In this document: positions 6,636-42,802 of the stretch, one piece after another | How positions within the stretch are numbered: position 1 is the first letter of the stretch | How the letters are laid out: each line of letters starts with the position of its first letter | IMG/VR virus record: IMGVR_UViG_3300031277_000001 | Location: 1-64,000 of that record | DNA: 64,000 nucleotides | Source: a virus | Direction: 5' to 3' (one strand) | The notes under the pieces: model-generated | The model's database searches: none | Told to the model about the DNA's origin: nothing | Seen by the model: the letters and a program-made list of their open reading frames with translations, nothing else | Position numbers and translations under genes: made by a program

Positions 6636-6847
6636 GACGTCCTCCTTTTTAGTCTGTCACGCAGAGTCAGACGGACCTTCACGGCCACGTCCACCTCTGA
6701 CCTCTTGATTGGCTTGCCCAAGAAGTTGTTCTTAAAGGCAAACCAGAGAACCCACCAGAACCTCATCCTAGGCAGTTTCTCCAGCGTGCCTCCCTCGTTC
6801 GTCCGGAGATAGCAGGCATCTCCCATGACCTTGAAGTCACCTATCAT
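6632..6847 (-). CDS. Small hypothetical protein (71 aa)
   Basis: ATG at 6847 follows GGGGGGAGACG. The product has an aromatic, hydrophobic stretch in the middle (MRFWWVLWFAFKNNFLGK) that could sit in or on a membrane, flanked by basic residues. It overlaps genes on both sides, consistent with a translationally coupled chain. No family recognised. Confidence 0.7.
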   Translation of the reverse strand: MIGDFKVMGDACYLRTNEGGTLEKLPRMRFWWVLWFAFKNNFLGKPIKRSEVDVAVKVRLTLRDRLKRRTS

Positions 6848-6983
6848 CGTCTCCCCCCTTGCCCGTCAGGGCTCTCCTAAACAGGTCCAACATCTCGGGG
6901 CTACCATGCATCTTGCCATCATTACCCTTGCGCCCTTTGGGTGGGATGTATATCCCTGTGCTCCTCCCCTGCTCTTCACTCAC
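6837..6983 (-). CDS. Small hypothetical protein (48 aa, GTG start)
   Basis: GTG at 6983 overlaps the preceding TGA stop in a GTGA arrangement, and AGG-rich sequence lies just upstream inside the neighbouring gene. The 48-residue product begins SEEQGRSTGIYIPPKGRKG and ends GKGGDDDR. The tight overlaps at both ends argue that it is real although short. No homologue recognised. Confidence 0.6.
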   Translation of the reverse strand: MSEEQGRSTGIYIPPKGRKGNDGKMHGSPEMLDLFRRALTGKGGDDDR

Positions 6984-7225
6984 TGACACCACCTCCTCCA
7001 GAAGCGCTCCAGCCGCTCTTCCTCTCTCCTCCGCTGCCGGTATGCATACTGCTCCAGGGAGATCCTCTTCTTCGGCCGGGATCTGAGGAAGAAGAACTCA
7101 ATGAGTCCCTCAACAATTACCCACCTCATCTTCTTCTTCCTCTCCGGCAGGGAGTATATAGATTTGATGATTGTCTCATCATAATCGTAGGATTCCAATA
7201 GTTCATAAGCCTCCCGATCCGTCAT
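6980..7225 (-). CDS. Small basic helical protein (81 aa)
   Basis: ATG at 7225 is preceded by GGGAGGAAGGTG. The first half is acidic (TDREAYELLESYDYDETI), the second strongly basic (YRQRRREEERLERFWRRW). A longer in-frame extension upstream lacks a ribosome-binding site and overlaps a zinc-ribbon gene, so it is rejected. Function unknown. Confidence 0.7.
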   Translation of the reverse strand: MTDREAYELLESYDYDETIIKSIYSLPERKKKMRWVIVEGLIEFFFLRSRPKKRISLEQYAYRQRRREEERLERFWRRWCQ

Positions 7226-7374
7226 CACCTTCCTCCCGTCTTGGTATTCACGTACACCGCCAGGTTGACCACGGACGGAGGCAGCACGATCTTCTTCGCA
7301 CACTTCGTGCACACCAGCACGCAGTCCACGATCGCCCAGGCGTTGCTCCCACACGAGCACTTCGCCTGTGTCAT
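7225..7374 (-). CDS. Zinc-ribbon mini-protein (49 aa)
   Basis: ATG at 7374 overlaps the stop of the upstream gene (ATGA). The 49-residue product contains CSCG near its start and CTKC near residue 22, a two-knuckle zinc ribbon. Its stop shares one base with the next start (TGATG). Small zinc-ribbon proteins of this sort are common in phage gene strings; the role is unknown. Confidence 0.65.
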   Translation of the reverse strand: MTQAKCSCGSNAWAIVDCVLVCTKCAKKIVLPPSVVNLAVYVNTKTGGR

Positions 7375-7913
7375 TCACCCACCTTCTCCCCGAGATCCTG
7401 GGAGTTGTGGAAGTCCTCCCGGGCCTCCTCACTCTTGGACGCCTTCGTTGAGCCATCAACGAGCCCAACTGAGCAGTCACAGGAGTGCACCCACGGTGCA
7501 TGACTCTTTCCGCATCTCGTGCACACCCAACCCTTACTGACATCACTCATGGTGTTCCTCCTTCTTCCTTCTATGTACTCGTACAACTTCACCGTCGCGA
7601 TCGTCTTGTTCTCGGACCGGCAGCCCCAGTGGAACGCCTGCTCCATGGCACTGAACATGTCGTCCGTGGTGAAACTCGCGTCCCTCCGCAGCTCCATCAC
7701 GGGACCCGAGGACTTCATGAACTCCTGGTACCTCTTCTGGTCAGACTCCGCATCGAGTGCATAGTACTTCCGAGCCCAAGAGGCACCCGGCATGAGTACA
7801 CTGACGACGGCACAGTTCCTACTATTGAGCTCCGGATCAATGAAGACCAGAGAGGAGTCTCCTCCCCGGATGGCCCGACCAAACAATTCCTTCAAAGGCG
7901 CTATGATGATCAT
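7371..7913 (-). CDS. Hypothetical protein with C-terminal zinc ribbon (180 aa)
   Basis: ATG at 7913 overlaps the upstream gene's stop by four bases. Residues 1-125 form a mixed alpha/beta domain without a recognised family. A Cys cluster follows (CTRCGKSHAPW and CDC, near residues 138-155). An internal ATG with a good GGAGG (MSDVSKGWVCTRC) might allow the zinc ribbon to be made on its own as a short second product. Function unknown. Confidence 0.75.
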   Translation of the reverse strand: MIIIAPLKELFGRAIRGGDSSLVFIDPELNSRNCAVVSVLMPGASWARKYYALDAESDQKRYQEFMKSSGPVMELRRDASFTTDDMFSAMEQAFHWGCRSENKTIATVKLYEYIEGRRRNTMSDVSKGWVCTRCGKSHAPWVHSCDCSVGLVDGSTKASKSEEAREDFHNSQDLGEKVGE

Positions 7914-8338
7914 GACGGCTCCCCCTTCTCCTGCTTCTCCATCTCCATGAGGAACATCGCGTTGCAGATCACCTGGGCGAGGTGGAGGCACTCCGGCATC
8001 TCGGGGTCCCTCAACTCTCCCCCGCGCCAGGCCTCGAAGTGTCGCATGAGTGCCGAGGTGTACCTGTCCTTGGCGTTAGGCACCAGCTTCCAGTTGTTGT
8101 CGGCGTACTTCCGAGCCCCGATGGTGAGCACCCTGGCCACCTCCCGCAGGACGTCGACCGGCACCAGGGAGTAACGGACCTTGCCATCGTCGTACTTCGC
8201 TCCCTCACTACGTACCTCAGAGTCAGTACTCCTCATCGCCTCCTGCACATTCCCAAGTGCCTCCGTGGACTTCCTATCAGACTCCACAGCCTTCTGGAAA
8301 AACTCCTTGCAGATGTGCTCCGTGGACTTCCTACTCAT
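7910..8338 (-). CDS. dATP/dGTP diphosphohydrolase-type protein (DUF5664)
   Basis: The central segment KYDDGKVRYSLVP, then ARKYADNNWK, ALMRHFEAWRGGE and a late HLAQVICNAMFL matches the all-alpha phage family annotated as dATP/dGTP diphosphohydrolase, N-terminal (DUF5664), distantly MazG/HD-like. The His, Glu and Asp residues in these blocks would bind metal. The first about 50 residues are a charged helix. The start at ATG 8338 is preferred over a GTG nine bases earlier. A role in adjusting deoxypurine triphosphate pools would fit the phage's modified-guanine chemistry, but the substrate is not proven by sequence. Confidence 0.65.
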   Translation of the reverse strand: MSRKSTEHICKEFFQKAVESDRKSTEALGNVQEAMRSTDSEVRSEGAKYDDGKVRYSLVPVDVLREVARVLTIGARKYADNNWKLVPNAKDRYTSALMRHFEAWRGGELRDPEMPECLHLAQVICNAMFLMEMEKQEKGEPS

Positions 8339-8579
8339 CGCCTGCACTGCCTACGTGAGACTCCACCGGAGTAATCACCTGGAGGAGTGTACGGGAGTCA
8401 ATTACCATGACCTTGTTCTTGGGAAACGTACGTATCAAACTCTCCCTGAGAGTTACTACGAACTTGGTGGAGTTCATCATGAGATCATTCACAGACACCA
8501 CAATGACGTCATCCGGCTTCAGTTCCAGGACCTTGATACTCTCCAAATCTATGACGGCATCACCATCTACTAATTTCAT
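8331..8579 (-). CDS. Small hypothetical protein (82 aa)
   Basis: A beta-rich protein (VIDLESIKVLELKPDDVIVVSV). ATG at 8579 follows GGACAAGAG. Its last codons overlap the start of the DUF5664 gene. Family not recognised; the pattern of alternating hydrophobics suggests a small barrel or ferredoxin-like fold. Confidence 0.7.
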   Translation of the reverse strand: MKLVDGDAVIDLESIKVLELKPDDVIVVSVNDLMMNSTKFVVTLRESLIRTFPKNKVMVIDSRTLLQVITPVESHVGSAGDE

Positions 8580-8598
8580 CTCTTGTCCTCCACCAACT

Positions 8599-8925
8599 TC
8601 ATACTTCCTCCTCTGGTGTCACGTCTCTCACAACAGGATCAGTATTCCTGGGAAGCATTTCCCCCACGATACTGACACCGCCCCCGAGATCAATCTCTAC
8701 TTTACCACCCCTGAGATCCTTGATCCTCGACACGGAGCCACGTAGGGAGATCACCTTCCACTCCTTGTCGTCCGGCTTCCTGCCGCCGTCACCCGTATTG
8801 GCGGATTCCACGTGCACCAGGACTGCCCCGCAGATCGTGCAGTCCCCCGCCAGGTAGTGCTCTGTGACCTTCCCGCAGCGCTCGCAGTACTTGTACTCCA
8901 CGGCTCGAACCATGTTCACACTCAC
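8599..8925 (-). CDS. Zinc-ribbon protein (108 aa)
   Basis: CERCGK at residues 14-19 and CTICG about 15 residues later form a classical zinc ribbon, followed by a beta-rich tail with LRGSVSRIKDLRGGKVEIDLGG. The start overlaps the end of the DUF5662 gene by four bases. An internal start at residue 5 (MVRAVEYKY) is possible. Function unknown. Confidence 0.75.
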   Translation of the reverse strand: MSVNMVRAVEYKYCERCGKVTEHYLAGDCTICGAVLVHVESANTGDGGRKPDDKEWKVISLRGSVSRIKDLRGGKVEIDLGGGVSIVGEMLPRNTDPVVRDVTPEEEV

Positions 8926-9629
8926 AACGACATCACCTCCCGGGACTCCTCGTACTCCCGCTGCTCCTTGCTGTCAGACCACTCGATCAGGTACTCCACG
9001 AGCTCCCGCGTCCTCACGTGCAAGCACATCCTGTGACAGTTCACAGCGTACCACCTCCGCGTCGCCTGGTAGTGGTCGTCCCCGTGCAGGTAGGTCCCCT
9101 GAGCCTTCCCGGCCGCCACCCAGTCCGCCACCATCTCCTTGACGCACTCGACAGGCATCTCGAGCACCTTGATGCCTCCGAGGTCCACGGGGAGAGTCCA
9201 GTACTGCCAGTGGTGGGCGTTCCTCTTCTGGTGGAGGAACCAGGCGTGGTCGAACGCAGGGTCACCGGTGTCCGTCGGCTTGTAGTACCCTATGCCCTTC
9301 TTCCTCTCCGCAGCCGCTACATCACGGAACCTACCGTGGAAGTGGTTGGCGTAGGGGAAGAACTCCGACGGCCTGAACTTCGACAAGTCGTGGACGACGC
9401 CCCGCCAGGGCATCCCCATCCTCGCGCACTCCAGGAACACGAACCACTTGTGCTTGATCACGTACTTGAGGTACGTCCGCCAGACGATGAGGAGCAGGAG
9501 CCAGTGACGAAGCCTCGCGCCTGCTGCATGGGGCTGGCGCTGCATCGCCGACTCACCGCCCTGCTTGGAAAACTTCTTGGACTTTTCCACGCTCTTCTCT
9601 TGCACTTCTCGTACCTCCTCTCGATTCAT
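8922..9629 (-). CDS. DUF5662-type metal-binding phage protein
   Basis: 235 residues. The HDLSKF motif, then HQKRNAHHWQYW and a late HGDDHYQ form the signature of the DUF5662 phage family, which looks like a divergent HD-type metal-dependent phosphohydrolase core. Such proteins occur in many large phages; the substrate is unknown. A basic N-terminal extension of about 40 residues precedes the domain. ATG at 9629 lies three bases after the stop of the gene upstream. Confidence 0.7.
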   Translation of the reverse strand: MNREEVREVQEKSVEKSKKFSKQGGESAMQRQPHAAGARLRHWLLLLIVWRTYLKYVIKHKWFVFLECARMGMPWRGVVHDLSKFRPSEFFPYANHFHGRFRDVAAAERKKGIGYYKPTDTGDPAFDHAWFLHQKRNAHHWQYWTLPVDLGGIKVLEMPVECVKEMVADWVAAGKAQGTYLHGDDHYQATRRWYAVNCHRMCLHVRTRELVEYLIEWSDSKEQREYEESREVMSL

Positions 9630-13307: not shown

Positions 13308-13970
13308 TCAAACATCAAACACCTCGGGAAGAAGACCGAGAAGATAGTTCCTGAGAGGAATCATCAACTGCAACATTTGTGGGTGAGCCTTCGAAGAAGT
13401 GCGCAATCTAAGCACGTGCCTCCACTCACGATAATTCGCCGACATCACTATCTCCGTCTTCAAAGCGTTAGGAAGAACAGACCTGGCCTGCTGAGGGGTC
13501 CAACCCGATTCCAGAAGCTTCATGTACGTCTGTTCTGCTACCAAACAAGAGTTCATCCAAGCATATGAAGGAGACGAAGAACCTGGCTTCAACTTCTGAT
13601 CAAGAAGCTCAATTCCATACTCCCCATCTGGATAGTCCACCCAAAAAGGACGAATGACAGTTATCTGAGCATCAAACTGCTCCCGAGAATAATTGCAGTA
13701 TCTCGTGCTCTCCTGCGAGAACGACGCGAGGCGGTGACGGACCAGTTCATGCGAGATGCCTCTGTCACAGACGAACCTGACAGTGAGTAAGGAGTGCTCA
13801 ATCACAGATTCATGCCCGAGACTTATCACCTTCTTCACAAACTTCGGGGCTGAATCTTGCGTGATTTTCTCTTCAGACTTATAACAAGTCCTCCCCGCCC
13901 TCTCTATCACTTGAGAAAAAAGAGGGGAATCTGGAAAGATCACCTCAAACGAAGGTTCTATCATTCTCAT
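13308..13970 (-). CDS. thyX: Flavin-dependent thymidylate synthase
   Basis: 220 residues with the ThyX signature RHRxxSxxxxSxR at residues 78-90 (RHRLASFSQESTR), plus the C-terminal SANYREWRHVLRLR block that binds dUMP and FAD. The enzyme converts dUMP to dTMP with methylenetetrahydrofolate and NADPH, keeping flavin as hydride carrier. ATG at 13970 overlaps the upstream stop (ATGA). It supplies dTTP for phage replication; no thymine-hypermodification gene is seen beside it. Confidence 0.93.
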   Translation of the reverse strand: MRMIEPSFEVIFPDSPLFSQVIERAGRTCYKSEEKITQDSAPKFVKKVISLGHESVIEHSLLTVRFVCDRGISHELVRHRLASFSQESTRYCNYSREQFDAQITVIRPFWVDYPDGEYGIELLDQKLKPGSSSPSYAWMNSCLVAEQTYMKLLESGWTPQQARSVLPNALKTEIVMSANYREWRHVLRLRTSSKAHPQMLQLMIPLRNYLLGLLPEVFDV

Positions 13971-14368
13971 AACAACACTCCTCTCACCAACTTTCTCGCC
14001 CGTATGATGTTGCTGGGACTGTTCCATATGAAGTTCCTGCCACTCGGATGAGGAAGGATCAAGTATCTCCCCTCCCTCTCAAAAGGAGTGTAGTGGAATC
14101 CAAACGCCTTGCTCACCTTGGCTCCCAGGAGGATTATGACACTCCACTCCTGCGACTCCTTGATGATGTTCGCTTCTTCTCTCGCCTGCTTGTTGGACCA
14201 CGTTCCCACGCACAAGTTCTTCCTATCAAACTTCCCTATGTACTCCGACACGGACATGTCGAAGATGTTGCGGAGCCTGTCTCCGGAAGCTCCGCGTGGG
14301 AGTGGATACAAGGCAAAACGAGGATCCACTCCATAGGGATTGAGTTCACCGACGAGTAGAGGCTTCAT
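13967..14368 (-). CDS. Uracil-DNA-glycosylase-fold protein
   Basis: The order LLVGELNPYG near the N-terminus, VIILLGAKVSKAFG in the middle, and HPSGRNFIWN at residues 107-116 matches motifs of the UDG superfamily (substrate loop and HPS minor-groove loop). At 133 residues it is short for an active family 1-5 enzyme and has no Fe-S cysteines. It may recognise an unusual base or nucleotide; the phage has a second UDG domain fused to its polymerase. Activity is uncertain. Confidence 0.6.
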   Translation of the reverse strand: MKPLLVGELNPYGVDPRFALYPLPRGASGDRLRNIFDMSVSEYIGKFDRKNLCVGTWSNKQAREEANIIKESQEWSVIILLGAKVSKAFGFHYTPFEREGRYLILPHPSGRNFIWNSPSNIIRARKLVRGVLL

Positions 14369-16161: not shown

Positions 16162-17436
16162 TCAAATATGAAATGGCTGGACGTCCTTCTCCGTCCTACC
16201 TGTAGAGAACAGGAGGAGGTCAGGAAATGCTGCAACCACATCACTCGACCTCACTCCGGATTTCTCATGATGGATTAATCTAAGCAAACTAAGAGTAGAC
16301 ACTCCAGCAATAGTCCTCAACCTGAACTCCTTGGTAAAGTCCGTCAGGTGGTCCAAACACGTCAATGCCACACCCACCTTGGCAGTACTGGAAGGCCTAT
16401 ACTTCACCTTACCCAGATCTTCTTTGATTTCCTTGACGGCCTGCTTACACCAATCAAGATCGAGGTAGCCGTACCTCATGGCTCCCTGGAACTTGTTCTC
16501 AGGATTAGTGTAGTTCTCGACTCCCTTATAAGGGAGTCCGTCCACCTCGTTGAGTACGGGACCATCACCGTGTCTCGTCAAGTAAGTCCTGGTGACCAGG
16601 TAGACGTCGAGCTCCACCTCGGAGCGGAGACGATTGAGAACCTCCACGACGTTCCGCATCCCCGTGCTCGACCGCGTCAGATACGGCATGAGATCCTTTC
16701 GCTTCTGATCCAGACGCATGCCCTGGGCTCCCTCGAAGACCACCTGTCTGCCGGGCTCCTTGGCACAGTACCTCTCCAGGAGGTCCGAGGTCTCCCACAT
16801 CACAGAGTTCTTCATCATCCTCCTCGCGTAGTCCACGAAGTTGTCCACGATTGCGAAGCCTCCCATCTTGTCGATGGCCCACCTCCGGAACTCACGATCA
16901 TCCAGATGCAACTTCTCCAGACGGTAAGGGAGATACTCGTTCTCTATAATGTACAAGACGTCCTTGAGCTGTCCCTCTGACTTGTCTACGAGATCCCTGG
17001 CCAGGATCTTGAGCTGACGATACTGACTGCGCTCCACGGTCTCGTTGATCCCCAAGCCGCAGGTCATCGTAGTCCCCTCCTGCTTGGAAGCATACTCGTT
17101 GATCAGCATGTCGTACGGCGTGGAGATCCTGCAGAGAGGATCGACAAAGACCTCCCTGACAGGGGCCTTCTTGTCGAGGAGCTCCTTGAGTTCCTTGAAG
17201 AACATGAGGGGATTGACGATGAAGTGTGGAGCGAAAAGAGTTCGGGCACCCCGAAGAGTGCCCGATCCGAAGTGATGAAATATGTGCTCCTGGCCACTGG
17301 ACGTCTTTACACCATGACCAGCCTGAGCTCCACCGTTGAACCGCACGTTGAGGGTACGTGCATCTGACAGATAGTTGACTATGTGACCCTTGCCCTCATC
17401 ACCGTAGTTCATCCCAACAACTGCTGAAATCTTCAT
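16162..17436 (-). CDS. purA: Adenylosuccinate synthetase (PurA/PurZ family, PurA-type catalytic residues)
   Basis: 424 residues, close to the 432 of E. coli PurA. The P-loop GDEGKG at residues 12-17 keeps Asp13, and GGAQAGH places His41 exactly where the catalytic His lies in PurA. VFEGAQG and TRHGDGP blocks are also conserved. PurA joins IMP and aspartate using GTP to make adenylosuccinate. Phage PurZ, which makes the 2-aminoadenine precursor from dGMP, replaces Asp13 with Ser or Gly, so this protein looks like the PurA type, though divergent elsewhere (EGTTMTCGLGIN). It probably boosts purine supply for phage DNA synthesis. Substrate choice between IMP and a (d)GMP analogue cannot be settled by eye. 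Confidence 0.85.
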   Translation of the reverse strand: MKISAVVGMNYGDEGKGHIVNYLSDARTLNVRFNGGAQAGHGVKTSSGQEHIFHHFGSGTLRGARTLFAPHFIVNPLMFFKELKELLDKKAPVREVFVDPLCRISTPYDMLINEYASKQEGTTMTCGLGINETVERSQYRQLKILARDLVDKSEGQLKDVLYIIENEYLPYRLEKLHLDDREFRRWAIDKMGGFAIVDNFVDYARRMMKNSVMWETSDLLERYCAKEPGRQVVFEGAQGMRLDQKRKDLMPYLTRSSTGMRNVVEVLNRLRSEVELDVYLVTRTYLTRHGDGPVLNEVDGLPYKGVENYTNPENKFQGAMRYGYLDLDWCKQAVKEIKEDLGKVKYRPSSTAKVGVALTCLDHLTDFTKEFRLRTIAGVSTLSLLRLIHHEKSGVRSSDVVAAFPDLLLFSTGRTEKDVQPFHI

Positions 17437-28444: not shown

Positions 28445-31063
28445 TCATTCCCCCGCCTTCAACGTCCCGCAACTCTCCATCTCGGCCCAACTCCCGTCAA
28501 CAGCCGAGCGCTCTTTCTCAACGGTGAGCGGAACTATGATCCAAGGCCAGAACTCTCGGACCTTCTTCGTACCGTAGTCGTACACGAGGCGATCAAACAA
28601 CTTCTCGTCGTCGGGATGCACGTCCGCAACAATAGAATCATGAATCTGCCCTATTACAAAAGATCTATCAAGATGTTGGGTAGCCTCGGACACCTTGACA
28701 AACGTCCAGAGGAGGATATGAAACGCGCTTCCCTGGACCCTGTAGTTGATCACCTCGTTCCTCTTCATGGGACCCCAACATCGAAAGTCCGTGTACATGT
28801 CGATATAACCGCACTTCTCGTAATCCACAACCGTTTGCTTCTTCCATGCGGCGTACACCTTGAATCGCTCTCCCCAAAATCTCCTATCACACTTCTCAAC
28901 ATGGGACTCGAAGTCGTCAAAATCTCGGACGCCCTTCTCACGTAGCCATCCCCGGGTCTCCTCGGACATCCTCTTCCACATATCTGGAGCAGTCTGCTCG
29001 TAGAAGGAACCATAGAAGGAAGGAAACACGAAACCATTCTTGGCGAGGTACCTCTCTTGCTTTGACACCTTCTCCTTGTCCTTCTTGAAGATCTCAGCAG
29101 CCATGTCACGATGCATGTCGGCGTTGGGGTCCTCGATGTACCGGATGAGATTGGGATCCTTGTTGTAGCAAGCCGCTGTGCACACTTCAGTCTGCTTGAA
29201 GTCATACTCCACGAGGCGATTTCCTCTCCTGGGAACAATCAACGAACGTATGACGTGCTTGATCTTCTCGTCTCTCTTTGGAACGTTCTGGAAGTTCGGA
29301 CTACTTGAAGAAGATCGAAACGTATCGACGTTACCCAAGCCGAAGAAGGGGTGGATGTATCCTCGAACCATCTCTCTCTCATACTGTCCCAAGTATGTCT
29401 TCCGAGCCTTACTCCATCGCCGAAACTCGAGGACTTCCTTGGCGAGCGGGACATCAAGACCTTCAAGAGCCTTCTCGTCCACAGACCTCTTGCCTCCAGA
29501 TGTCCGTGCCCTGGATCTCACTTCGAGGATGTCAAAGAGAAGATGTGCCAACTGATCTGGAGAACCTACGTTGAACTTATTCTTGCCATCCCATCTCTTC
29601 ACCTCGGGGCTATCATAAATCCTCTCTTCTATGCAGCGGATCCTCCTATCAATAGAGGCGCGCACCTCTTCCAATTTCTCCCTTTCAACACGGACACCAT
29701 TGTTCTGTGCCCTTGCAAGCCACTGACTTGACTCAAAGAAGAATCTCGCTCCGGTCAGGAGTCGCTTCTTTGAGTCAAACTCCTTCCTTTGGATCACAAA
29801 CAACTCCCTAGTAAAAAAAGAGTCCTCCCCGTTGTAAAGCAAGACCTTCCCCATGGGAGCTTCCTCTATTCTATTAAAAGCGTTAGCAGAGTCTGCATCC
29901 TCCCCAGGAGATGCGGTCGTAATGTATGGATCAACGTCTTCATCATAACCTAGGACCCCTAGATTTTTGTAGACCTGAAACTTCAAACCGACGTTCTTTC
30001 TATTGTTGAGACAATGAGCCGCGAGCATAGTGTCCCACCTCGGCCCCGAAATCTTCTTCCCTAGGCAGTACAAAGACCACATTTCCTCGAAAGACATGTT
30101 GTGACAAATCTTGCCTATGTCAGAGTCAAGAAATCTTCCCCAAGCTTCCTTGACTTTATCATCTGAGAACGAAAAAGCCTTGGTATCATGTCCGTCACAG
30201 AAAGATACAGACACAATCCTATGTCCTTCTCTGTGAGGTTTCTTCCCTGTGGTTTCATAATCAAAAGCAACCCAGGAGGGACTCCTCATCAAGAGATCCT
30301 CTATCCAAGCAACAGCTAAATCTGGGTCCTCCGTGATGTCAACTTTACTTCTCTTGTATGAAGGGAAATCAGCAGAAACAACAGATAGCACTGCACGTAA
30401 CTGCTTCTTATACTGTGCTTCGAGAACCTTGTCGCCCCCCAAACGTACAAGATATGAAGGATGATAGACGGGACAAATCCACATTCCCAACTCCTGGTCA
30501 GGAATGACCTCTCCCACCCAATTAGAATACTTGATCTTCTTGATCCTTCCCACCATGCGAGGACCCATGTAGGCATCAAAGGCAGATTCACCTACGAGGA
30601 GAACTGCCTTGGGCTTGTACATCTCAATCGTGTTGAGAAGATTTCTTCTACAGATCCGCAGTTCCTTAGGACTTGGACTTCTATTCTTGGGAGGTCTACA
30701 AATCAACGCATTGGTCTTCCAGAAGTCCTTATCAAGATCAAGGTCAAGTTCTGACAAGATGTCACGAAAATACTGTCCTGTCTTCCCTACAAGCTGAGTA
30801 CCTTTCCTGTCCTCGGTCTCTCCTGGGGCCTCGGCCACAACCAAAATCTCCTTGTCCCCACGACCACTAGGCTGCATCTTCGGAGATTCACAAGTCTTGT
30901 AGAGCCCACAATTCTCACAAGTCTCAACCTTCGTAGAACGCGAGGAAGAGGACCTCCCCCGAGTTGGAGCAACACCTCTTCTTTCCCGCTCGGACTGCTT
31001 CTCGGCCTTTGTCTTCATAGCATAGAGGCCGACATTCATCTCTTCAAAGAAACCACCCTTCAC
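28445..31063 (-). CDS. DNA polymerase, family A, with fused uracil-DNA glycosylase and 3'-5' exonuclease domains
   Basis: 872 residues. Residues 45-230 form a family 4-type UDG: Fe-S cysteines C49, C52 or C58, C122 and C138, VAEAPGETEDRKG, ICRPPKNRSPSP and YHPSYLVR at 200-207. A DnaQ/Pol I-type exonuclease begins near 262 with FDYETTG (Asp268, Glu270). The C-terminal family A polymerase shows motif A YDFKQTEV, the O-helix AKNGFVFPSFYG and motif C QIHDSIV with the catalytic Asp. This is the replicative polymerase; fused UDG domains are, as I recall, also present in SPO1-like phage polymerases. Whether the UDG excises uracil or senses it ahead of the fork is unknown. GTG at 31063 overlaps the clamp stop; ATG at 31039 is an alternative start. 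Confidence 0.92.
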   Translation of the reverse strand: MKGGFFEEMNVGLYAMKTKAEKQSERERRGVAPTRGRSSSSRSTKVETCENCGLYKTCESPKMQPSGRGDKEILVVAEAPGETEDRKGTQLVGKTGQYFRDILSELDLDLDKDFWKTNALICRPPKNRSPSPKELRICRRNLLNTIEMYKPKAVLLVGESAFDAYMGPRMVGRIKKIKYSNWVGEVIPDQELGMWICPVYHPSYLVRLGGDKVLEAQYKKQLRAVLSVVSADFPSYKRSKVDITEDPDLAVAWIEDLLMRSPSWVAFDYETTGKKPHREGHRIVSVSFCDGHDTKAFSFSDDKVKEAWGRFLDSDIGKICHNMSFEEMWSLYCLGKKISGPRWDTMLAAHCLNNRKNVGLKFQVYKNLGVLGYDEDVDPYITTASPGEDADSANAFNRIEEAPMGKVLLYNGEDSFFTRELFVIQRKEFDSKKRLLTGARFFFESSQWLARAQNNGVRVEREKLEEVRASIDRRIRCIEERIYDSPEVKRWDGKNKFNVGSPDQLAHLLFDILEVRSRARTSGGKRSVDEKALEGLDVPLAKEVLEFRRWSKARKTYLGQYEREMVRGYIHPFFGLGNVDTFRSSSSSPNFQNVPKRDEKIKHVIRSLIVPRRGNRLVEYDFKQTEVCTAACYNKDPNLIRYIEDPNADMHRDMAAEIFKKDKEKVSKQERYLAKNGFVFPSFYGSFYEQTAPDMWKRMSEETRGWLREKGVRDFDDFESHVEKCDRRFWGERFKVYAAWKKQTVVDYEKCGYIDMYTDFRCWGPMKRNEVINYRVQGSAFHILLWTFVKVSEATQHLDRSFVIGQIHDSIVADVHPDDEKLFDRLVYDYGTKKVREFWPWIIVPLTVEKERSAVDGSWAEMESCGTLKAGE

Positions 31064-32118: not shown

Positions 32119-32278
32119 TCCGATCTCCTCTCTCATATTCTTCTTTCTTCTTCATGAAATTATCAAGTTCTGACTTGTAAAAGTACGACTTCAAGATGTG
32201 TAAATCTTTGATCTTGTCTTCTATCTTCTTGAGATAATCCTCATTCAAGTTGTAGAATCCAGCATAGAAAATAATCAT
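32060..32278 (-). CDS. Small hypothetical protein (72 aa)
   Basis: Starts MIIFYAGFYNLNEDYLKKIE, mostly helical and charged, Ser/Ala-rich end. The last 59 bases overlap the clamp gene in another frame, which is longer than usual, so the C-terminus may be less constrained. ATG overlaps the upstream stop (ATGA). No family recognised. Confidence 0.55.
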   Translation of the reverse strand: MIIFYAGFYNLNEDYLKKIEDKIKDLHILKSYFYKSELDNFMKKKEEYERGDRNASGSKSASGEIADVDDRG

Positions 32279-32613
32279 GACAACCCCATCGACTTCAAGA
32301 TCTCCGAGCCATCACAGAAAGAAGGACCGCGGAGAGCCGCTTCCTTCTGCTTACTCCTCTCTTCTACTAACTTGACGACAGCATCAAAGACATAGCACTG
32401 CATCTTCATCTGCTCACTTTTGTTCAAAGTCGCAGGGAAGGGGAGGGCTTGGAGAGTCCCAACGGGTTCCCACATGTCTTGAGATATACGATGCAACTCA
32501 TCCAAGGAAAACTCTCCAAGAATCAAATCAACACGAACCATCAAAGGCTTGAGGAGCTCCGCCAACAAAATATTCCTCTCAAGTTTATTGTCTCCCACGG
32601 GTTCCTCCATCAT
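32275..32613 (-). CDS. Hypothetical protein (112 aa)
   Basis: Starts MMEEPVGDNKLERNILLAEL; predicted all-helical, with one Cys pair far apart. It overlaps the stop of the dpdA-like gene by four bases, and the next gene by four, so it is translated with the modification operon. No family recognised; could be an accessory to DNA modification or replication. Confidence 0.65.
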   Translation of the reverse strand: MMEEPVGDNKLERNILLAELLKPLMVRVDLILGEFSLDELHRISQDMWEPVGTLQALPFPATLNKSEQMKMQCYVFDAVVKLVEERSKQKEAALRGPSFCDGSEILKSMGLS

Positions 32614-33488
32614 GTAAAATTGAATCCTTGAGCCAAGAACTCCTTGCCCTTGTAGCGTCGGTGAGGAAAAGGCTCAAGCCTGGACAAAAATTCTTCAAAG
32701 AAGAGGATATTGATCACCTCCCTCTGGCGATGGGAGTTACTAAGCCCTTCTTCAACAACTTTCTCCATACCATTCTCAGAAATAGACTTCCCCCATGAAA
32801 ATCCTCGCATGGACACATACTCCATGACCTTCTCTTTCTCCTGAGTAGATAGCGTGGAGAAACGCCTCATCACGATCTCTCTCATCGTTCCGCGAAGAGT
32901 GATCTTCGTGGCCAAGGGCGTCCTGTCATACATGAACTCTCCCTTGGCGTTCCAGCGAGGAACGAGGATCCCTCCATATCCTGCACAGAGACGCCAGGTC
33001 ATGGAATCACAGGAGAACCACGGGTACCTGTAGAGCATCTCAACTGAGGTCACTGCGAATCCATGCGTCTTGACCAACGGATACCCCGCGTCGTCTGTCG
33101 TGTGCATCATGCACTCATCAAGCCAGCGGACCTTGCTTCTGTGCACCGAGTCGTTGGCGGGGGAGAGTCCTATGTAGGGAATCTCCTTGACCATCTTCTT
33201 CAACCACTTCCAGTCTTCATGTTGGTGGAAGACGTGAATCAACTTGTCCTTCTCGATGCCCTTGGAAAGCATGTACTCGTAGTTCGCGTAGCCCTTGCGG
33301 GCGGACTCCTCAAACTCGTCCCGAGATGGCTTGCGACCAAACTCTCCAGGAATGGAATCCAGATTGACGTAGTAGGAGAACTTGTCCCTGTTCTTCTTGA
33401 TGTACTCCACATACTCGTCAAGATCAACAGCGTCCTTCTGCGTCCACGCCGAGAATGCTCCACTATCAAGGAGCATCGAGAAGTTCAT
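32610..33488 (-). CDS. dpdA: DpdA-like DNA 7-deazaguanine transglycosylase
   Basis: 292 residues. LLDSGAFSAW at 6-15 is the hallmark of phage DpdA proteins, relatives of tRNA-guanine transglycosylase with a TIM-barrel fold. NLDSI at 42-46 and FSCDSMTW at 158-165 provide conserved aspartates; Asp161 is the likely nucleophile that displaces guanine. DpdA exchanges guanine in DNA for a free 7-deazaguanine base (preQ0 or preQ1). It ends the QueD-QueE-FolE-QueC-YkgJ-QueF operon, so substrate and enzyme are made together. The sequence preference for modified guanines is not visible. Confidence 0.8.
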   Translation of the reverse strand: MNFSMLLDSGAFSAWTQKDAVDLDEYVEYIKKNRDKFSYYVNLDSIPGEFGRKPSRDEFEESARKGYANYEYMLSKGIEKDKLIHVFHQHEDWKWLKKMVKEIPYIGLSPANDSVHRSKVRWLDECMMHTTDDAGYPLVKTHGFAVTSVEMLYRYPWFSCDSMTWRLCAGYGGILVPRWNAKGEFMYDRTPLATKITLRGTMREIVMRRFSTLSTQEKEKVMEYVSMRGFSWGKSISENGMEKVVEEGLSNSHRQREVINILFFEEFLSRLEPFPHRRYKGKEFLAQGFNFT

Positions 33489-33922
33489 ATCTTGCTCCCC
33501 ACATGAATCTTCGTCGTGATTCCTCCTCGAATAGCCACCTCAATGTCCACGGACAAATCATCAGGACCAACAACACTATGAAAATCTTGATAAATCTTCG
33601 CCGCAAGGTGCTCATGAGAGATAGGAAGTTCCCGATAGTCCAAGAGATAAAACTTCAACGCCTTGAGCTCCGGGACACTCTTGCGAGGTACATATCTGAT
33701 GCGAAGCTTGTTGATGTCTGGCAAGAACGTCACAGGACACAAAGAAATCAACTCGTCCGTGGCGTACTCAACAACCTCTGCCACAAGTCCCACATAAGGG
33801 ATCAACACAAGATGAAAGTGAGGAAGTACGACGTCCATGGAGTCCTGCACTCTCTGCCTATAGATTGCCTCCGTAGCGTTCTCCATCGTAGTGAGAGGCT
33901 TCCACTTCCTAACATCATCCAT
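33485..33922 (-). CDS. queF: QueF-like 7-cyano-7-deazaguanine reductase
   Basis: 145 residues, the short unimodular size. Catalytic Cys62 in LCPVTFLPD with Asp69 matches QueF, where the Cys forms a thioimide with preQ0. The NADPH-binding QueF motif is retained as ELKALKFY (85-92), followed by DYRELPISHEH with the conserved His103 and Glu104. QueF reduces preQ0 to preQ1 with two NADPH. QueF-L proteins, which make other derivatives, lack the NADPH motif, so true reduction is favoured. The start at ATG 33922 overlaps the end of the upstream gene by a few bases; longer starts are rejected. Confidence 0.8.
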   Translation of the reverse strand: MDDVRKWKPLTTMENATEAIYRQRVQDSMDVVLPHFHLVLIPYVGLVAEVVEYATDELISLCPVTFLPDINKLRIRYVPRKSVPELKALKFYLLDYRELPISHEHLAAKIYQDFHSVVGPDDLSVDIEVAIRGGITTKIHVGSKI

Positions 33923-33924
33923 CG

Positions 33925-34557
33925 TCACCATCCATAACCTCCTTGTAGTATCTGCATGTCCTTGAGCTTGTTCTCCTCGAAACCGAAGTAGTTCAACCAG
34001 TCCAGGAGTCTCTTGAGCTTTCTCCGTATGTCCAGGGACTCCTGCGGTGAGCAGTAGTCGCGTATGATGCACTTGCAACCCCTCGTCTTGCCATCACACT
34101 GGAGCATGTTCCAAGCCCTCCCGAACGTCCTTGTCATGAGAATAGCTCGCTCCTTGTTGTGAAGAAACCTCAATATCTCGAAGTCGCAGGAGAAGGGTCG
34201 AAGATCGTGAATCTTGCAGCGTCCCGTGATTTTCTCGAGATACTTGCAGTGGTAATCTTTGTTCTCCTCCTGGAGATCCGAGAACACCGTGTAGTTCTTG
34301 TCGTTGATTCTTATCTGCCGAGGAGTGAGCTTCAACGCGTCTATGGCTTCCCTCTCCGAGGGGAGATAGTCCAAGGAAAATCGAGGACAGCACGCCCCGC
34401 ATCCAGAAGGGCAAGTGAACTCTCGCATCAACTTGGGAGAGATCTGCAACTTCTTCGAGGGTTCAACAAGCACTCCCTTGTAATAGAAAGGACTACTTGC
34501 ACAAGAAGCCACGTAAGATAACATGATCTTGTCTACAGAATCAGTGTACTGTGGCAC
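33925..34557 (-). CDS. YkgJ-type cysteine-cluster protein
   Basis: 210 residues with CPSGCGACC near residue 50 (CX3CX2CC), then CKYLEKITGRCKIHDLRPFSC and CDGKTRGCKCIIRDYC: the pattern of the YkgJ zinc/iron-chelating family. Start is GTG at 34557 with AAGGAGAACAC upstream. Members are linked to metal clusters and sometimes to radical or oxidative chemistry. Here the gene sits between queC and queF in the modification operon, so a role in tailoring the deazaguanine base or in metal supply for QueE is suggested; there is no direct evidence. Confidence 0.75.
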   Translation of the reverse strand: MPQYTDSVDKIMLSYVASCASSPFYYKGVLVEPSKKLQISPKLMREFTCPSGCGACCPRFSLDYLPSEREAIDALKLTPRQIRINDKNYTVFSDLQEENKDYHCKYLEKITGRCKIHDLRPFSCDFEILRFLHNKERAILMTRTFGRAWNMLQCDGKTRGCKCIIRDYCSPQESLDIRRKLKRLLDWLNYFGFEENKLKDMQILQGGYGW

Positions 34558-34566
34558 GTGTTCTCC

Positions 34567-35319
34567 TTAAAAGGGCGTTCCTTCGAGATCTGGGTCACCT
34601 GCGTCCGACGCCATCTCCTTGGTGACGCGACGCGGCGTCTCGTTGGTTTCTTCCTCTTGCATCTCTCGTTCAAGGACGTCTTCGTAGTTGGTGTTGTCGA
34701 ATCCCTGGAGAGCTTCCTTGCGCTCCGTGCACGCTCCGCACTTGCCGCAGTGGTACTCTCCTCCCTTGTAGCACGTCCAGGTGTTCCTCCCGAAGTCGAT
34801 GCCGAGACCATGTCCGATGAGTCCTATGGCTCTCTTGGACAAGTAGATGTAGGGAGCCGCAATCATGATGTGCTCGTAAGTCCCCATGGCCATGGACTGA
34901 CTCATGGAGGCGATAAAGTTAGGACGACAGTCGGGATAGATGGCGTGATCTCCCGAGTGAACTCCTATCAAGACACCTGTGCAACCAGAAGATGCTGCAA
35001 CGGCACAGGCGATGGAAAGCATCATCCCGTTTCGAAAGGGAACAACCGTCTTCTTCTGGCTCTCGTCCTCGTAGTGCCCTTCGGGAATGTCATCACCCCC
35101 TTGGAGAAGATTTGATCGAAGCATGGGCAACAGCTGCGAGAGATCAATGACCTCATGGGGAACGCCCAAAGACTCGCAGTTCTTCTTGGCAAACTCCAGT
35201 TCTTTGAGATGCTTCTGTCCATAGAAGAAAGACAGTGCTTTCTTGATGTTCTCCTTTTCCTGGTGGAGCAAGGTGACACTATCCATTCCCCCCGACACGA
35301 TAATCAACTTATCTTTCAT
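34567..35319 (-). CDS. queC: 7-cyano-7-deazaguanine synthase
   Basis: 250 residues. The PP-loop SGGMDS at 9-14 binds ATP; VPFRNGMMLSIA and the four-Cys zinc site (CYKGGEYHCGKCGAC) near the C-terminus are characteristic of QueC. The enzyme turns 7-carboxy-7-deazaguanine into preQ0 with ammonia and ATP. It is a standalone QueC, without the amidotransferase fusion (Gat-QueC) of some phages. Part of the compact modification operon. Confidence 0.93.
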   Translation of the reverse strand: MKDKLIIVSGGMDSVTLLHQEKENIKKALSFFYGQKHLKELEFAKKNCESLGVPHEVIDLSQLLPMLRSNLLQGGDDIPEGHYEDESQKKTVVPFRNGMMLSIACAVAASSGCTGVLIGVHSGDHAIYPDCRPNFIASMSQSMAMGTYEHIMIAAPYIYLSKRAIGLIGHGLGIDFGRNTWTCYKGGEYHCGKCGACTERKEALQGFDNTNYEDVLEREMQEEETNETPRRVTKEMASDAGDPDLEGTPF

Positions 35320-35322
35320 ATC

Positions 35323-35904
35323 TTACCTCCCTACCAATGAAAGAAATTCTGCCCTGACTTCTGGCTGGAGGAATACTCCACGCAGGGCAGATGTGATAAT
35401 TTTGGATTCTTGTTGATATGCTCCCCGCATCTTCATGCAGTAATGTGTCCCTTCAACAAACACAGCCGAACCTCCTGACTGAATGCCTAAAAACAACTTG
35501 TTGGCAATATCCTCAGTCAAAGTCTCTTGAAGAACTGGGCGCTTAGCCAAAATAGAAGACAACCGAGCCAACTTTGATACACCAAGAACGCGGCCGGCGG
35601 GAATGTAGGCGAGGTTGACTGTGTACTCCACGGGGAGGAGATGATGGGGACACATCGAATAGACACGAATCCCTCGAGCTATGATCATCTCTTTACATTC
35701 CCCAGGAAATGTGGCAGAAAGAATCTTTTCTACCTGCATGTCAGTATCACGCAAGCCTCCGAAGATTTCTGCATAGGCTCGAGCAACACGAGCTGGGGTG
35801 TCTTTGAAGTTTTCATCTTGACTGTTCAAACCATAAAGAGAGGCGAGACCTTGTAGTATGAACGCCACTCCATCTTCAATCATCTGAGTTCCATCTCGTT
35901 CCAT
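35323..35904 (-). CDS. folE: GTP cyclohydrolase I
   Basis: 193 residues from ATG 35904, which shares bases with the queE stop (TAATG). The zinc ligands are visible in SMCPHHLLP and in THYCMKMRG, and RVLGVSKLAR is the conserved substrate-pocket segment. It makes dihydroneopterin triphosphate from GTP, the first step to queuosine-type bases (and folate). The placement between queE and queC assigns it to the deazaguanine pathway. Confidence 0.93.
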   Translation of the reverse strand: MERDGTQMIEDGVAFILQGLASLYGLNSQDENFKDTPARVARAYAEIFGGLRDTDMQVEKILSATFPGECKEMIIARGIRVYSMCPHHLLPVEYTVNLAYIPAGRVLGVSKLARLSSILAKRPVLQETLTEDIANKLFLGIQSGGSAVFVEGTHYCMKMRGAYQQESKIITSALRGVFLQPEVRAEFLSLVGR

Positions 35905-36548
35905 TATCGCACTCCTATCAACTTGTGGATTTGCAACGACAATCTCCACTCCAAAGGGAGCTTCTTGACTGCATCAACTGTCGCTTCAACATTCTTGTTG
36001 TCGTTGGGCTGCAAGAAAAAGTGATAAAATCCCTCACGTATGCCTATTCTTCCCAAGAGGGGTTGATAAGGCATAGCAGGAACAACGTATCTTCGCAGCT
36101 CCTCAATAGACTGCCCTGTATACACGAGTTTCAACTCGTCTCCAACGCGCTGCTTCCAGTTGAAATCCTTAGGAGAAACTGTCAACCACTCCACCTTACG
36201 ATGATCAAAATGAAAGTCTCCATTCGTCTCCACATGAACACGAAAACAAGAAGAATGCAAGCATTCTACCAAGTCAAGGAGACCTTGCATCTGGAACGTA
36301 GGCTCGCCCCCAGTGATTACAACACGGTTGCAGTCGGATCTCTCGGCAAGAGTGAGGACCTCGTCCATGATCTCATCGCAACTCATCACAGTAAATGGCA
36401 AGTGAATTGTGTCGCAAAACGAACAAGTTCTATTGCACCCTGAGAAGCGAACAAATATGGCGGGGGTCCCTGTCCAATAACCTTCACCCTGGATGGAGTA
36501 GAAAATCTCGTTGATCTTAATCTTCAACTCAGGACTGGTTGCCGTCAT
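35904..36548 (-). CDS. queE: 7-carboxy-7-deazaguanine synthase (radical SAM)
   Basis: 214 residues. FSGCNRTCSFC gives the CX3CX2C cluster motif at C38, C42 and C45, after the substrate-binding YSIQGEG near residue 17. VVITGGEPTFQ is the SAM-binding GGEP motif. QueE rearranges 6-carboxytetrahydropterin into the deazapurine ring using a [4Fe-4S] cluster and SAM. It overlaps queD by 20 bases. Confidence 0.93.
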   Translation of the reverse strand: MTATSPELKIKINEIFYSIQGEGYWTGTPAIFVRFSGCNRTCSFCDTIHLPFTVMSCDEIMDEVLTLAERSDCNRVVITGGEPTFQMQGLLDLVECLHSSCFRVHVETNGDFHFDHRKVEWLTVSPKDFNWKQRVGDELKLVYTGQSIEELRRYVVPAMPYQPLLGRIGIREGFYHFFLQPNDNKNVEATVDAVKKLPLEWRLSLQIHKLIGVR

Positions 36549-36861
36549 ACGTCACCACCGAACCTTCACTCTCCTCCACATCCACCTTGTAGCAGTAGGG
36601 GATCTGATCACACAACCACTTTGCAATGTTCTCCGCCGTGGGCTGCTCAACATAATCGTTGATAAAGTGATGATCAAGAACGTTGACCGTCTCCTTGATC
36701 TTCGAAAAGTCAAACACCATCCCATTCTCATCGAGACTTTCACGACGACAGTATATTGTAATTTTCCACGCATGCCCGTGAACATTCTGACACTTCGACG
36801 GATAATTGAGATCCAGTCGATGCGCTGCTGCTACAACAACCACCTTCTTCAAGTAGAACAC
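36529..36861 (-). CDS. queD: 6-carboxytetrahydropterin synthase
   Basis: 110 residues with zinc ligands His14, His28 and His30 (NVHGH), catalytic Cys24, DHHFIND at 63-69 and PTAEN. QueD converts dihydroneopterin triphosphate to 6-carboxytetrahydropterin. The start is GTG at 36861, after GGAGAGGTGAAGAA inside the short gene upstream. Confidence 0.92.
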   Translation of the reverse strand: MFYLKKVVVVAAAHRLDLNYPSKCQNVHGHAWKITIYCRRESLDENGMVFDFSKIKETVNVLDHHFINDYVEQPTAENIAKWLCDQIPYCYKVDVEESEGSVVTYDGNQS

Positions 36862-41398: not shown

Positions 41399-41902
41399 CT
41401 AAAAAAGTTGGTAGCAATGCCACCAGTCCTTTATCTCCTCCAACGAGATGTCAACAACTTTCACCGCCCAGGAGAGCTTCTTCGTGAAGAATTCTCGAAT
41501 AGAATTGAATGTGTGTCTCTTCTCGGGTAGGGAGAAGATGTAAGCAAGGATCTGCTGAGCACTATTGGACAACTCCGTCGTGATGGACTCCTGCAATTCA
41601 AGCTTCTGGAGAAACCGATCAAACACATCAGTATGTGACAACGTGTCAAGAATCGACTCATCTTGATATTCCACCTTGACGAGATCTTTGTTCTGACGAT
41701 AATAGAGATCTGCGATCCCTTTCAATCTGTACCACAAGAAGGTAGTAAACTGACCTAACTTCTCATCGTACTTCAATAAAGCTTCTACAAAGATGTAGAA
41801 AGCTTCTGAGCACATCTCATCATAGTCAAGACCATTACTTCTCGCTGCCCTCCAGGCTTGGTGTAGGATCTGCCTCTTGCATCTCTTGAACTCCTGCGTC
41901 AT
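41399..41902 (-). CDS. Sigma-factor-like protein (region 2)
   Basis: 167 residues from ATG 41902. LDYDEMCSEAFYIFVEALLKYDEKLGQFTTFLWYRLKGIADLYYR matches sigma-70 region 2 (-10 recognition and core binding), split here as DYDEMCSEAFYIF and KYDEKLGQFTTFLWYR. A C-terminal region of about 50 residues could serve as a reduced region 4 (NSAQQILAYIFSLPEKRHTF). Phage sigma factors redirect host RNA polymerase to later genes; the bipartite promoter elements in this window are candidate targets. It overlaps the Rad50 C-half gene by 68 bases. Confidence 0.65.
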   Translation of the reverse strand: MTQEFKRCKRQILHQAWRAARSNGLDYDEMCSEAFYIFVEALLKYDEKLGQFTTFLWYRLKGIADLYYRQNKDLVKVEYQDESILDTLSHTDVFDRFLQKLELQESITTELSNSAQQILAYIFSLPEKRHTFNSIREFFTKKLSWAVKVVDISLEEIKDWWHCYQLF

Positions 41903-42557
41903 CACTTCGGTACTTACGTTCACGTGATTCCTCCCCTTTCAAAACTACTACATGAGATTTCTTGTATCCATCACGACCTTCCCTCAATTTGACAGAAAAG
42001 AGTTTGTCTGCAATCTCTACAAGATTTTCTTCATGAGAAACAATTACAACTTGCAACTTCAATCTCTTGCTCAACTTCTTCAACATCTCACTCGCCTTGG
42101 GACGCAAGTCTCTCGAGAGAAGGCGGAAAGGCTCATCAAGTACAATGAACTTCCTCGTCCTGCCGAGGGACCAGACGGCAAGACGGAGGGCGAAGGAGCA
42201 CACGTCCGAGACACCTCCTCCTGACGAGTCTTGTGGATCTATACTAACACCATTACGTAAAAAGGTCAACTGTGCCTCCGTCTTTCCTCTCTTTATCTCA
42301 AAGTTGACCTTGAAGTCGTACTCCCCGGGAAAGACTGCGTCAATAGCAAGTTGAACGATGTCTTCAAGATGAAACTTGAGAGATTCTTGCGTCTCCTTAG
42401 CTACCTGCTGGATTAGAGCTTGAGCCTTCTCCACACTTTCAAGAAGTTGCAGAGAAGACTTCTTCTTCTCAATGGTCTCTGAGATCTTCTTCTTCAAGAA
42501 AGATCTCCGCGCCTCGGCCTGGAGAAGAATGGCACTATAGTCCTCCAAGTTCCTCAT
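41835..42557 (-). CDS. Rad50/SbcC-like ATPase, C-terminal half (split gene)
   Basis: 240 residues. After an N-terminal coiled coil come SSGGGVSDVCSFALRLAVW at 111-129 (ABC signature) and KFIVLDEPFRLL with Walker B Asp141/Glu142, then VVIVSHEENL with the H-loop His. It lacks a Walker A and the zinc hook. The matching N-terminal half with Walker A is encoded separately at 43761-44822. Together they would form the composite ATPase of a gp46/gp47-like end-processing complex. Confidence 0.85.
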   Translation of the reverse strand: MRNLEDYSAILLQAEARRSFLKKKISETIEKKKSSLQLLESVEKAQALIQQVAKETQESLKFHLEDIVQLAIDAVFPGEYDFKVNFEIKRGKTEAQLTFLRNGVSIDPQDSSGGGVSDVCSFALRLAVWSLGRTRKFIVLDEPFRLLSRDLRPKASEMLKKLSKRLKLQVVIVSHEENLVEIADKLFSVKLREGRDGYKKSHVVVLKGEESRERKYRSDDAGVQEMQEADPTPSLEGSEK

Positions 42558-42802
42558 GACACGGAATCCCAATCATACGAAGATTCAATCCTCGCCAAGA
42601 GAACAGCTATCCTTCTCTCTCCTTCCTTGATGTCGTCAACCAGAGACTTGATCTTGGCCTCAACCGCTGGGAGATCATCACATTGAAACTCGTCCTTCCA
42701 CCTCTTCTTGATGGACTCCATGACTCCCTCGGCCTTGGACTTCTTTGCCTTCAAGGTGTCAATCTTCTCCTTGATCTTCTTGATGTCTTCAATCGCTATC
42801 AC
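42554..42802 (-). CDS. Small coiled-coil protein between Mre11 and Rad50 C-half (82 aa)
   Basis: IKKIKEKIDTLKAKKSKAEGVMESIKKRW and later DDIKEGERRIAVLLARIES form a helical hairpin. One Cys only. It overlaps both neighbours by four bases. It may be a remnant or a separately made part of the Rad50 coiled-coil arm, or a subunit bridging the two halves. Confidence 0.7.
   Translation of the reverse strand: MIAIEDIKKIKEKIDTLKAKKSKAEGVMESIKKRWKDEFQCDDLPAVEAKIKSLVDDIKEGERRIAVLLARIESSYDWDSVS

Follow-up and report, generated by a model that had tools for sequence, protein, structure and literature searches.

Which modified base does a phage place in its DNA when it brings its own 7-deazaguanine genes, and which genes would serve that end? 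The question is raised by IMG/VR virus record IMGVR_UViG_3300031277_000001, a linear record of 65,465 bases, 64,000 of which were analysed here (the window). On its minus strand, between 32610 and 36861, an initial annotation made from the letters alone had described six tightly overlapping genes (QueD, QueE, FolE, QueC, QueF-like and DpdA-like) with all key residues visible, and had read from them that the guanines of the phage carry 7-aminomethyl-7-deazaguanine (preQ1) or a derivative of it. Profile searches and the catalytic residues bear out all six genes. However, a seventh gene had been overlooked, which encodes a 210-residue PF03692 protein between QueC and QueF. The preQ1 pathway stands, whereas plain preQ1 is an incomplete reading, as the PF03692 gene points to N-methyl-preQ1 instead. 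It is very likely that the phage DNA bears a preQ1-type modification, given the genes encoded here, and the best overall explanation, which we hold to be probably correct, is an operon in which the PF03692 protein adds a methylating step. The phage, which is uncultured, thus has every gene of an operon for preQ1 DNA modification, along with an extra gene that tracks QueF.

Gene content of the operon

Judged by sequence, the operon is real and complete, with family matches far beyond chance. The reading order is QueD, QueE, FolE, QueC, the PF03692 gene, QueF and DpdA, and neighbouring genes overlap or nearly touch. QueD (6-carboxytetrahydropterin synthase, 110 residues, 36529-36861) matches PF01242 (PTPS) with an E-value of 3.9e-25 and has the CxxxHGH and DHH motifs; its score against TIGR03367, 82 bits, is slightly below the cut-off of 89. 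QueE (7-carboxy-7-deazaguanine synthase, 214 residues, 35904-36548), a radical S-adenosylmethionine (SAM) protein, matches phrog_2076 (E 2.1e-32) and the Pfam radical SAM family (E 2.4e-11) and has the cluster motif CNRTCSFC, and its best NCBIfam model is the QueE model TIGR04508 (E 2.3e-33), at a score well below the cut-off. FolE (GTP cyclohydrolase I, 35323-35949) matches PF01227 (E 8.5e-52) and is above the cut-off of NF006826; its start is more likely the ATG at 35904, which overlaps the QueE stop, than the GTG at 35949. QueC (34567-35319), the synthase of 7-cyano-7-deazaguanine (preQ0), matches PF06508 (E 3.2e-56), is above the cut-off of TIGR00364 and shows the SGGMDS motif and four zinc cysteines, with no fused amidotransferase domain in its 250 residues.

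The PF03692 gene lies at 33925-34557 and encodes a CxxCxxCC protein that matches PF03692 (E 3.1e-6) and phrog_16018 (E 6.7e-34), the latter a group without assigned function. QueF (NADPH-dependent preQ0 reductase, 148 residues, 33485-33931) matches PF14489 (E 1.9e-17), and its start was corrected from the TTG at 34078 to the ATG at 33931, which stands behind AAGGAGG, so that it overlaps the end of the preceding gene. DpdA (DNA guanine transglycosylase, 292 residues, 32610-33488) matches phrog_887 (E 7.5e-51). Although QueD, QueE and QueF fall under their NCBIfam cut-offs, each has a strong match in Pfam or PHROG and intact motifs. The stop of DpdA is overlapped by a small open reading frame on the same strand (112 residues, 32275-32613), which has no significant family in Pfam or PHROG.

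From these genes and residues we infer the activities. All four enzymes of the preQ0 pathway, FolE, QueD, QueE and QueC, are found by profile search, and they would take GTP to preQ0. QueF, with NADPH, would then reduce the nitrile of preQ0 to an aminomethyl group, giving preQ1. The proposed route from GTP to preQ0 and preQ1 is thus supported, as all the families are present and QueF has the residues of a nitrile reductase. DpdA, whose predicted fold is that of a tRNA-guanine transglycosylase (TGT), would remove guanine from the phage DNA and put the 7-deazaguanine base in its place. Finally, the PF03692 protein, with SAM, would place a methyl group on the primary amine of preQ1, either as the free base or in DNA, so that the product in DNA is probably 7-(methylamino)methyl-7-deazaguanine (mdPreQ1). 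The operon is, in short, a probable self-sufficient cassette for preQ1 DNA modification with an N-methylation step.

The PF03692 protein and its link to QueF

The PF03692 gene tracks QueF. A profile scan of viral contigs for the family gave 50 loci, and among the PF03692-carrying viral records of at least 28 kb, QueF is present in 28/28 (two viral scans, 49 records in all); the eight of the 49 records without QueF are all fragments shorter than 28 kb. An independent scan was based on DpdA and kept the 80 loci nearest to the query. Here QueF is found in 9/9 loci with the PF03692 gene versus 29/71 loci without it (Fisher p = 7e-4), and in 6/6 versus 22/38 when loci of at least 14 kb with QueC are considered (p = 0.05), both p-values being optimistic, as the loci are phylogenetically non-independent and were kept for their nearness to the query. 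None of the 42 QueF-negative DpdA loci carries the PF03692 gene. Because the PF03692 gene tracks QueF, the predicted substrate is the amine made by QueF; the pattern says that the protein would need the QueF product, i.e. the primary amine of preQ1.

A possible mode of action comes from FliB, a SAM-dependent methylase of lysine amines with a [4Fe-4S] cluster on a CX4CX3CC motif and eight highly conserved cysteines, a motif that has been compared with PF03692 (PMC8598068). The 210-residue protein scores 28.2 bits against PF03692 (gathering cut-off 23), 7/8 of its relatives match the family at E<=1, and an alignment of 42 sequences shows eight cysteines without any exchange (C49, C53, C56, C57, C104, C114, C124 and C163). 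One FliB homologue scores above the PF03692 cut-off. When FliB homologues and the phage family were compared as profiles, the cysteine core aligned, including the stretch CxxL...RCxIH (77 columns, E 1.9e-4). Both proteins thus have a PF03692-type cysteine core and eight conserved cysteines, and the group that FliB methylates with SAM is a primary amine (PMC8598068); they differ in that FliB has about 400 residues, an unrelated C-terminal part and a protein substrate. By this analogy, the CX3CX2CC core of the PF03692 protein probably binds a [4Fe-4S] cluster. We do not class the protein as FliB, although it may act in a similar way, and N-methylation of the preQ1 aminomethyl group is its likely job. 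This sequence link between the tailoring of a phage base and an Fe-S amine methylase suggests a mechanism that can be tested.

Several points weigh against methylation. The similarity to FliB is confined to those 77 or so columns, at a probability of 47%, and the curated FliB model NF038110 does not match the 210-residue protein at any E-value up to 10. PF03692 includes many proteins of no known function, so that membership alone is no proof of methylation, and two bacterial relatives lie near a DUF6610 gene with no QueF in the neighbourhood. A 2023 study by Cui et al. is said to describe mdPreQ1 together with a methyltransferase, DpdM, of unusual fold. The DpdM step is the N-methylation of preQ1 in phage DNA that is predicted here. 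The PF03692 protein is a candidate DpdM, and the PF03692 family is confirmed to be encoded by Cellulophaga phage phi38:2.

In a rival reading, plain preQ1 stands in the DNA and the PF03692 protein has a different role in the pathway, for instance as a chaperone or as a supplier of metal or Fe-S clusters, with QueE or DpdA as the recipient. Many PF03692 proteins are known only as putative metal binders, the preQ1 reading of the initial annotation requires no extra gene, and 29 DpdA loci have QueF without the PF03692 protein. Yet a helper of QueE would be expected in loci without QueF as well, which is at odds with the 28 long records and with the 42 QueF-negative loci, and the FliB-like core indicates amine methylation. 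We consider this role unlikely, and methylation of the preQ1 amine the better account.

AlphaFold gives a confident model of the PF03692 protein, with a predicted local distance difference test (pLDDT) score of 92.9. Neither Foldseek nor VIA-align matched it to a PDB entry, which agrees with the unusual fold reported for DpdM and does not in itself make the fold novel, and against a viral structure library it gave only three clear matches, one of them of about the length of the Vibrio phage VH7D protein. That phage (L006/L010) encodes a 304-residue version at 41694-42608, distant from the QueF elsewhere on its record. Two loci carry two tandem PF03692 homologues each (L063:7959-9405 and L156:200-1896). 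A match of the PF03692 profile to BurB (E 0.042) was rejected as chance, as BurB belongs to the SET-domain enzymes and the aligned part does not include the cysteine core, and the match to PADLOC model PDC-M06A is weak (E 1.7e-4) and covers the C-terminal third only.

QueF, DpdA and the base predicted in DNA

QueF keeps C65, D72, E107, E88, K90 and K93, which are invariant with the QueF of Streptococcus phage Dp-1 and of other phages. Aligned with Bacillus subtilis QueF, these residues comprise the NADPH motif ExKxxK and the Cys, Asp and Glu of the catalytic site. It is above the Pfam QueF cut-off and gives 79.9 bits against the NCBIfam QueF-II equivalog (cut-off 86.9). If it were instead an amidinotransferase (QueF-L), the DNA base would be archaeosine (G+), and the PF03692 protein would work on that base or on another target. 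In phages, sequence is a poor guide to whether a protein is QueF or QueF-L (PMC6884629), and the window protein does match a QueF-L structure (E 3e-4). However, its best match among solved structures is B. subtilis QueF (E 4e-7), and at the NADPH motif it reads ELKALKFYL where QueF-L has AIEEFKKMV. Furthermore, the DNA of Dp-1, whose QueF is similar, contains dPreQ1 and no dG+ (PMC6884629). Given that the residues and the ExKxxK motif are kept and are shared with the Dp-1 protein, QueF is most likely a reductase rather than an amidinotransferase, and archaeosine is very unlikely to be the base.

DpdA has no meaningful Pfam match, while 194 phage records match it. Its predicted model (pLDDT 87.9) aligns with tRNA-guanine transglycosylases in VIA-align at a Z-score of 14.7, with 3.4 Å over 225 residues, and the best 50 rows are all TGT (Z 14.2-14.7). 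Two alignments, one with 14 relatives and one with 23, show D44, H88, H142 and D161 to be invariant and D8 to be invariant or nearly so. Both TGT-type catalytic aspartates and the THG histidine are conserved, and the histidine is the mark that separates DpdA from DpdA2 (PMC6884629). The TGT zinc motif CxCxxC is absent from the sequence. These observations, together with the matches to phage DpdA, support the assignment of the 292-residue protein to the phage DNA-modifying group, as a putative inserter of 7-deazaguanine into DNA. The outcome that the initial annotation had named as refuting, a protein that groups with TGTs acting on tRNA only, did not appear, as judged from sequence matches and residues rather than from a tree. 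That the operon merely feeds preQ1 to host tRNA queuosine through a tRNA-acting DpdA homologue, leaving the DNA unmodified, is scarcely credible: the fold is common to tRNA TGT and some phages have preQ0 genes without DpdA (PMC6884629), but the family matches are to phage DpdA, the zinc cysteines are missing, phage CAjan lost its DNA modification when dpdA was deleted (PMC6884629), and the operon is located among replication genes.

The preferred reading, methylated preQ1 in the phage DNA, has a consequence for defence. The modified base would protect against guanine-reading nucleases, and the genome, if so modified, would be shielded from bacterial DNA-cutting defences. The restriction resistance expected by the initial annotation would follow by analogy with other phages. 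Counts of restriction sites are near expectation for 15 enzymes (PstI 7 versus 15.8), counts that would be informative only with a known host.

Known systems, related loci and genomic setting

Among the closest parallels are phages that share the whole gene set. The phi38:2 region gp46-gp57 has FolE, QueF, PF03692 (gp53), DpdA (gp52), QueC, QueD and QueE clustered, as in the window, with the PF03692 gene between QueF and DpdA and the cluster adjoining a beta clamp. It differs in gene order and in an inserted ParB-like gene, and the two PF03692 proteins are 37% identical. According to PMC11515303, phi38:2 has DNA with a 7-deazaguanine modification. One region likewise holds QueC, QueF, PF03692, DpdA, QueD, QueE and FolE in Pseudanabaena phage Pan1 and in Mycobacterium phage Knocker, the PF03692 gene standing between QueF and DpdA in Pan1 and beside DpdA in Knocker; their PF03692 proteins are 38-40% identical to that of the window, while hosts and gene orders differ. 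We know of no DNA measurement for either phage. The queuosine cluster of Dp-1 also holds QueF, QueC, QueD, QueE, FolE and DpdA in one operon; unlike the window, it has a QueT transporter and no PF03692 gene.

The closest relative (L012, the same as L070) has a DpdA 76% identical to that of the window, and the PF03692 gene is absent. Its slot between QueC and QueF (L012:6407-7389) is occupied by a 101-residue CxxC protein and an open reading frame with a DxD-like stretch, which is glycosyltransferase-like with only a weak Anp1 match. In QueF-positive loci without PF03692, Pfam finds GNAT acetyltransferases in the corresponding region. They lie in deazaguanine clusters near QueF or DpdA at L014:7468-7878, L102:8818-9291, L120:9005-9391 and L121:8873-9364; further cases are L072:9065-9460 (by similarity to the others), L128:10633-11043 (a fragment, QueF not seen) and L083 at about 7180 (below the Pfam cut-off). 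A search of whole records found a GNAT match in 6/50 DpdA records (one below cut-off), all six inside the deazaguanine cluster. QueF-positive records account for 5/26 versus 0/23 for QueF-negative ones, plus the one fragment in which QueF was not seen (p = 0.03; 0.11 if the fragment is counted as negative). The GNAT proteins are candidates for N-acetylation of preQ1.

In cellular genomes, seven PF03692 relatives were found among 84,980, all on contigs of metagenome-assembled genomes. Some of them (L155, L158) look like phage clusters, whereas the contexts of L154 and L152 do not. L154 is a chromosome contig from an alphaproteobacterium; in its stretch 6415-9190 the PF03692 gene is grouped with DUF6610, a membrane protein and a transporter of the Vut_1 family, which includes importers of queuosine precursors. 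At L152:1198-3548, the PF03692 relative again stands with DUF6610, and a membrane protein of the L154 type is nearby. From its gene content, this arrangement could be a cellular module for base-salvage DNA modification. No further PF03692 relative was found in 299 sampled genomes of the phylum of L154. DUF6610 was rejected as a DpdA, the hhalign comparison not being significant.

A tentative generalization, which we find somewhat less likely than its alternatives taken together, treats the deazaguanine operon as a modular chassis in which the enzyme that caps the preQ1 amine can be swapped: a FliB-like [4Fe-4S] N-methylase in this phage, GNAT acetyltransferases in others and, in the closest relative, perhaps a GT-A-like protein. 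Its reduced bacterial version would be PF03692 with DUF6610, once with a possibly base-importing Vut_1. If true, the GNAT slot predicts a new DNA base, N-acetyl-preQ1, which to our knowledge is not known from DNA.

The source virus is a tailed phage; terminase and portal genes are found in the window, and the INPHARED set contains no near-identical phage. The operon is placed among replication genes, and its neighbours encode helicases, a primase and a DNA polymerase that also contains a uracil-glycosylase domain of family 4. A protein encoded at 16162-17436 (minus strand) is adenylosuccinate-synthetase-like and belongs to phrog_1211, which also holds PurZ. It has a PurA-like active site with the Asp of GDEGKG kept, and it matches PurA structures. 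A Z-DNA (2-aminoadenine) system is not supported, as this protein is PurA-like and far under the PurZ cut-off; neither DatZ nor MazZ turned up among the genes scanned. An FAD-dependent thymidylate synthase, ThyX, is encoded at 13308-14027 (minus strand) and is above its NCBIfam cut-off. In the polymerase (28445-31063, minus strand), the uracil-DNA-glycosylase domain (residues 49-212) is fused to a family-A DNA polymerase in one open reading frame.

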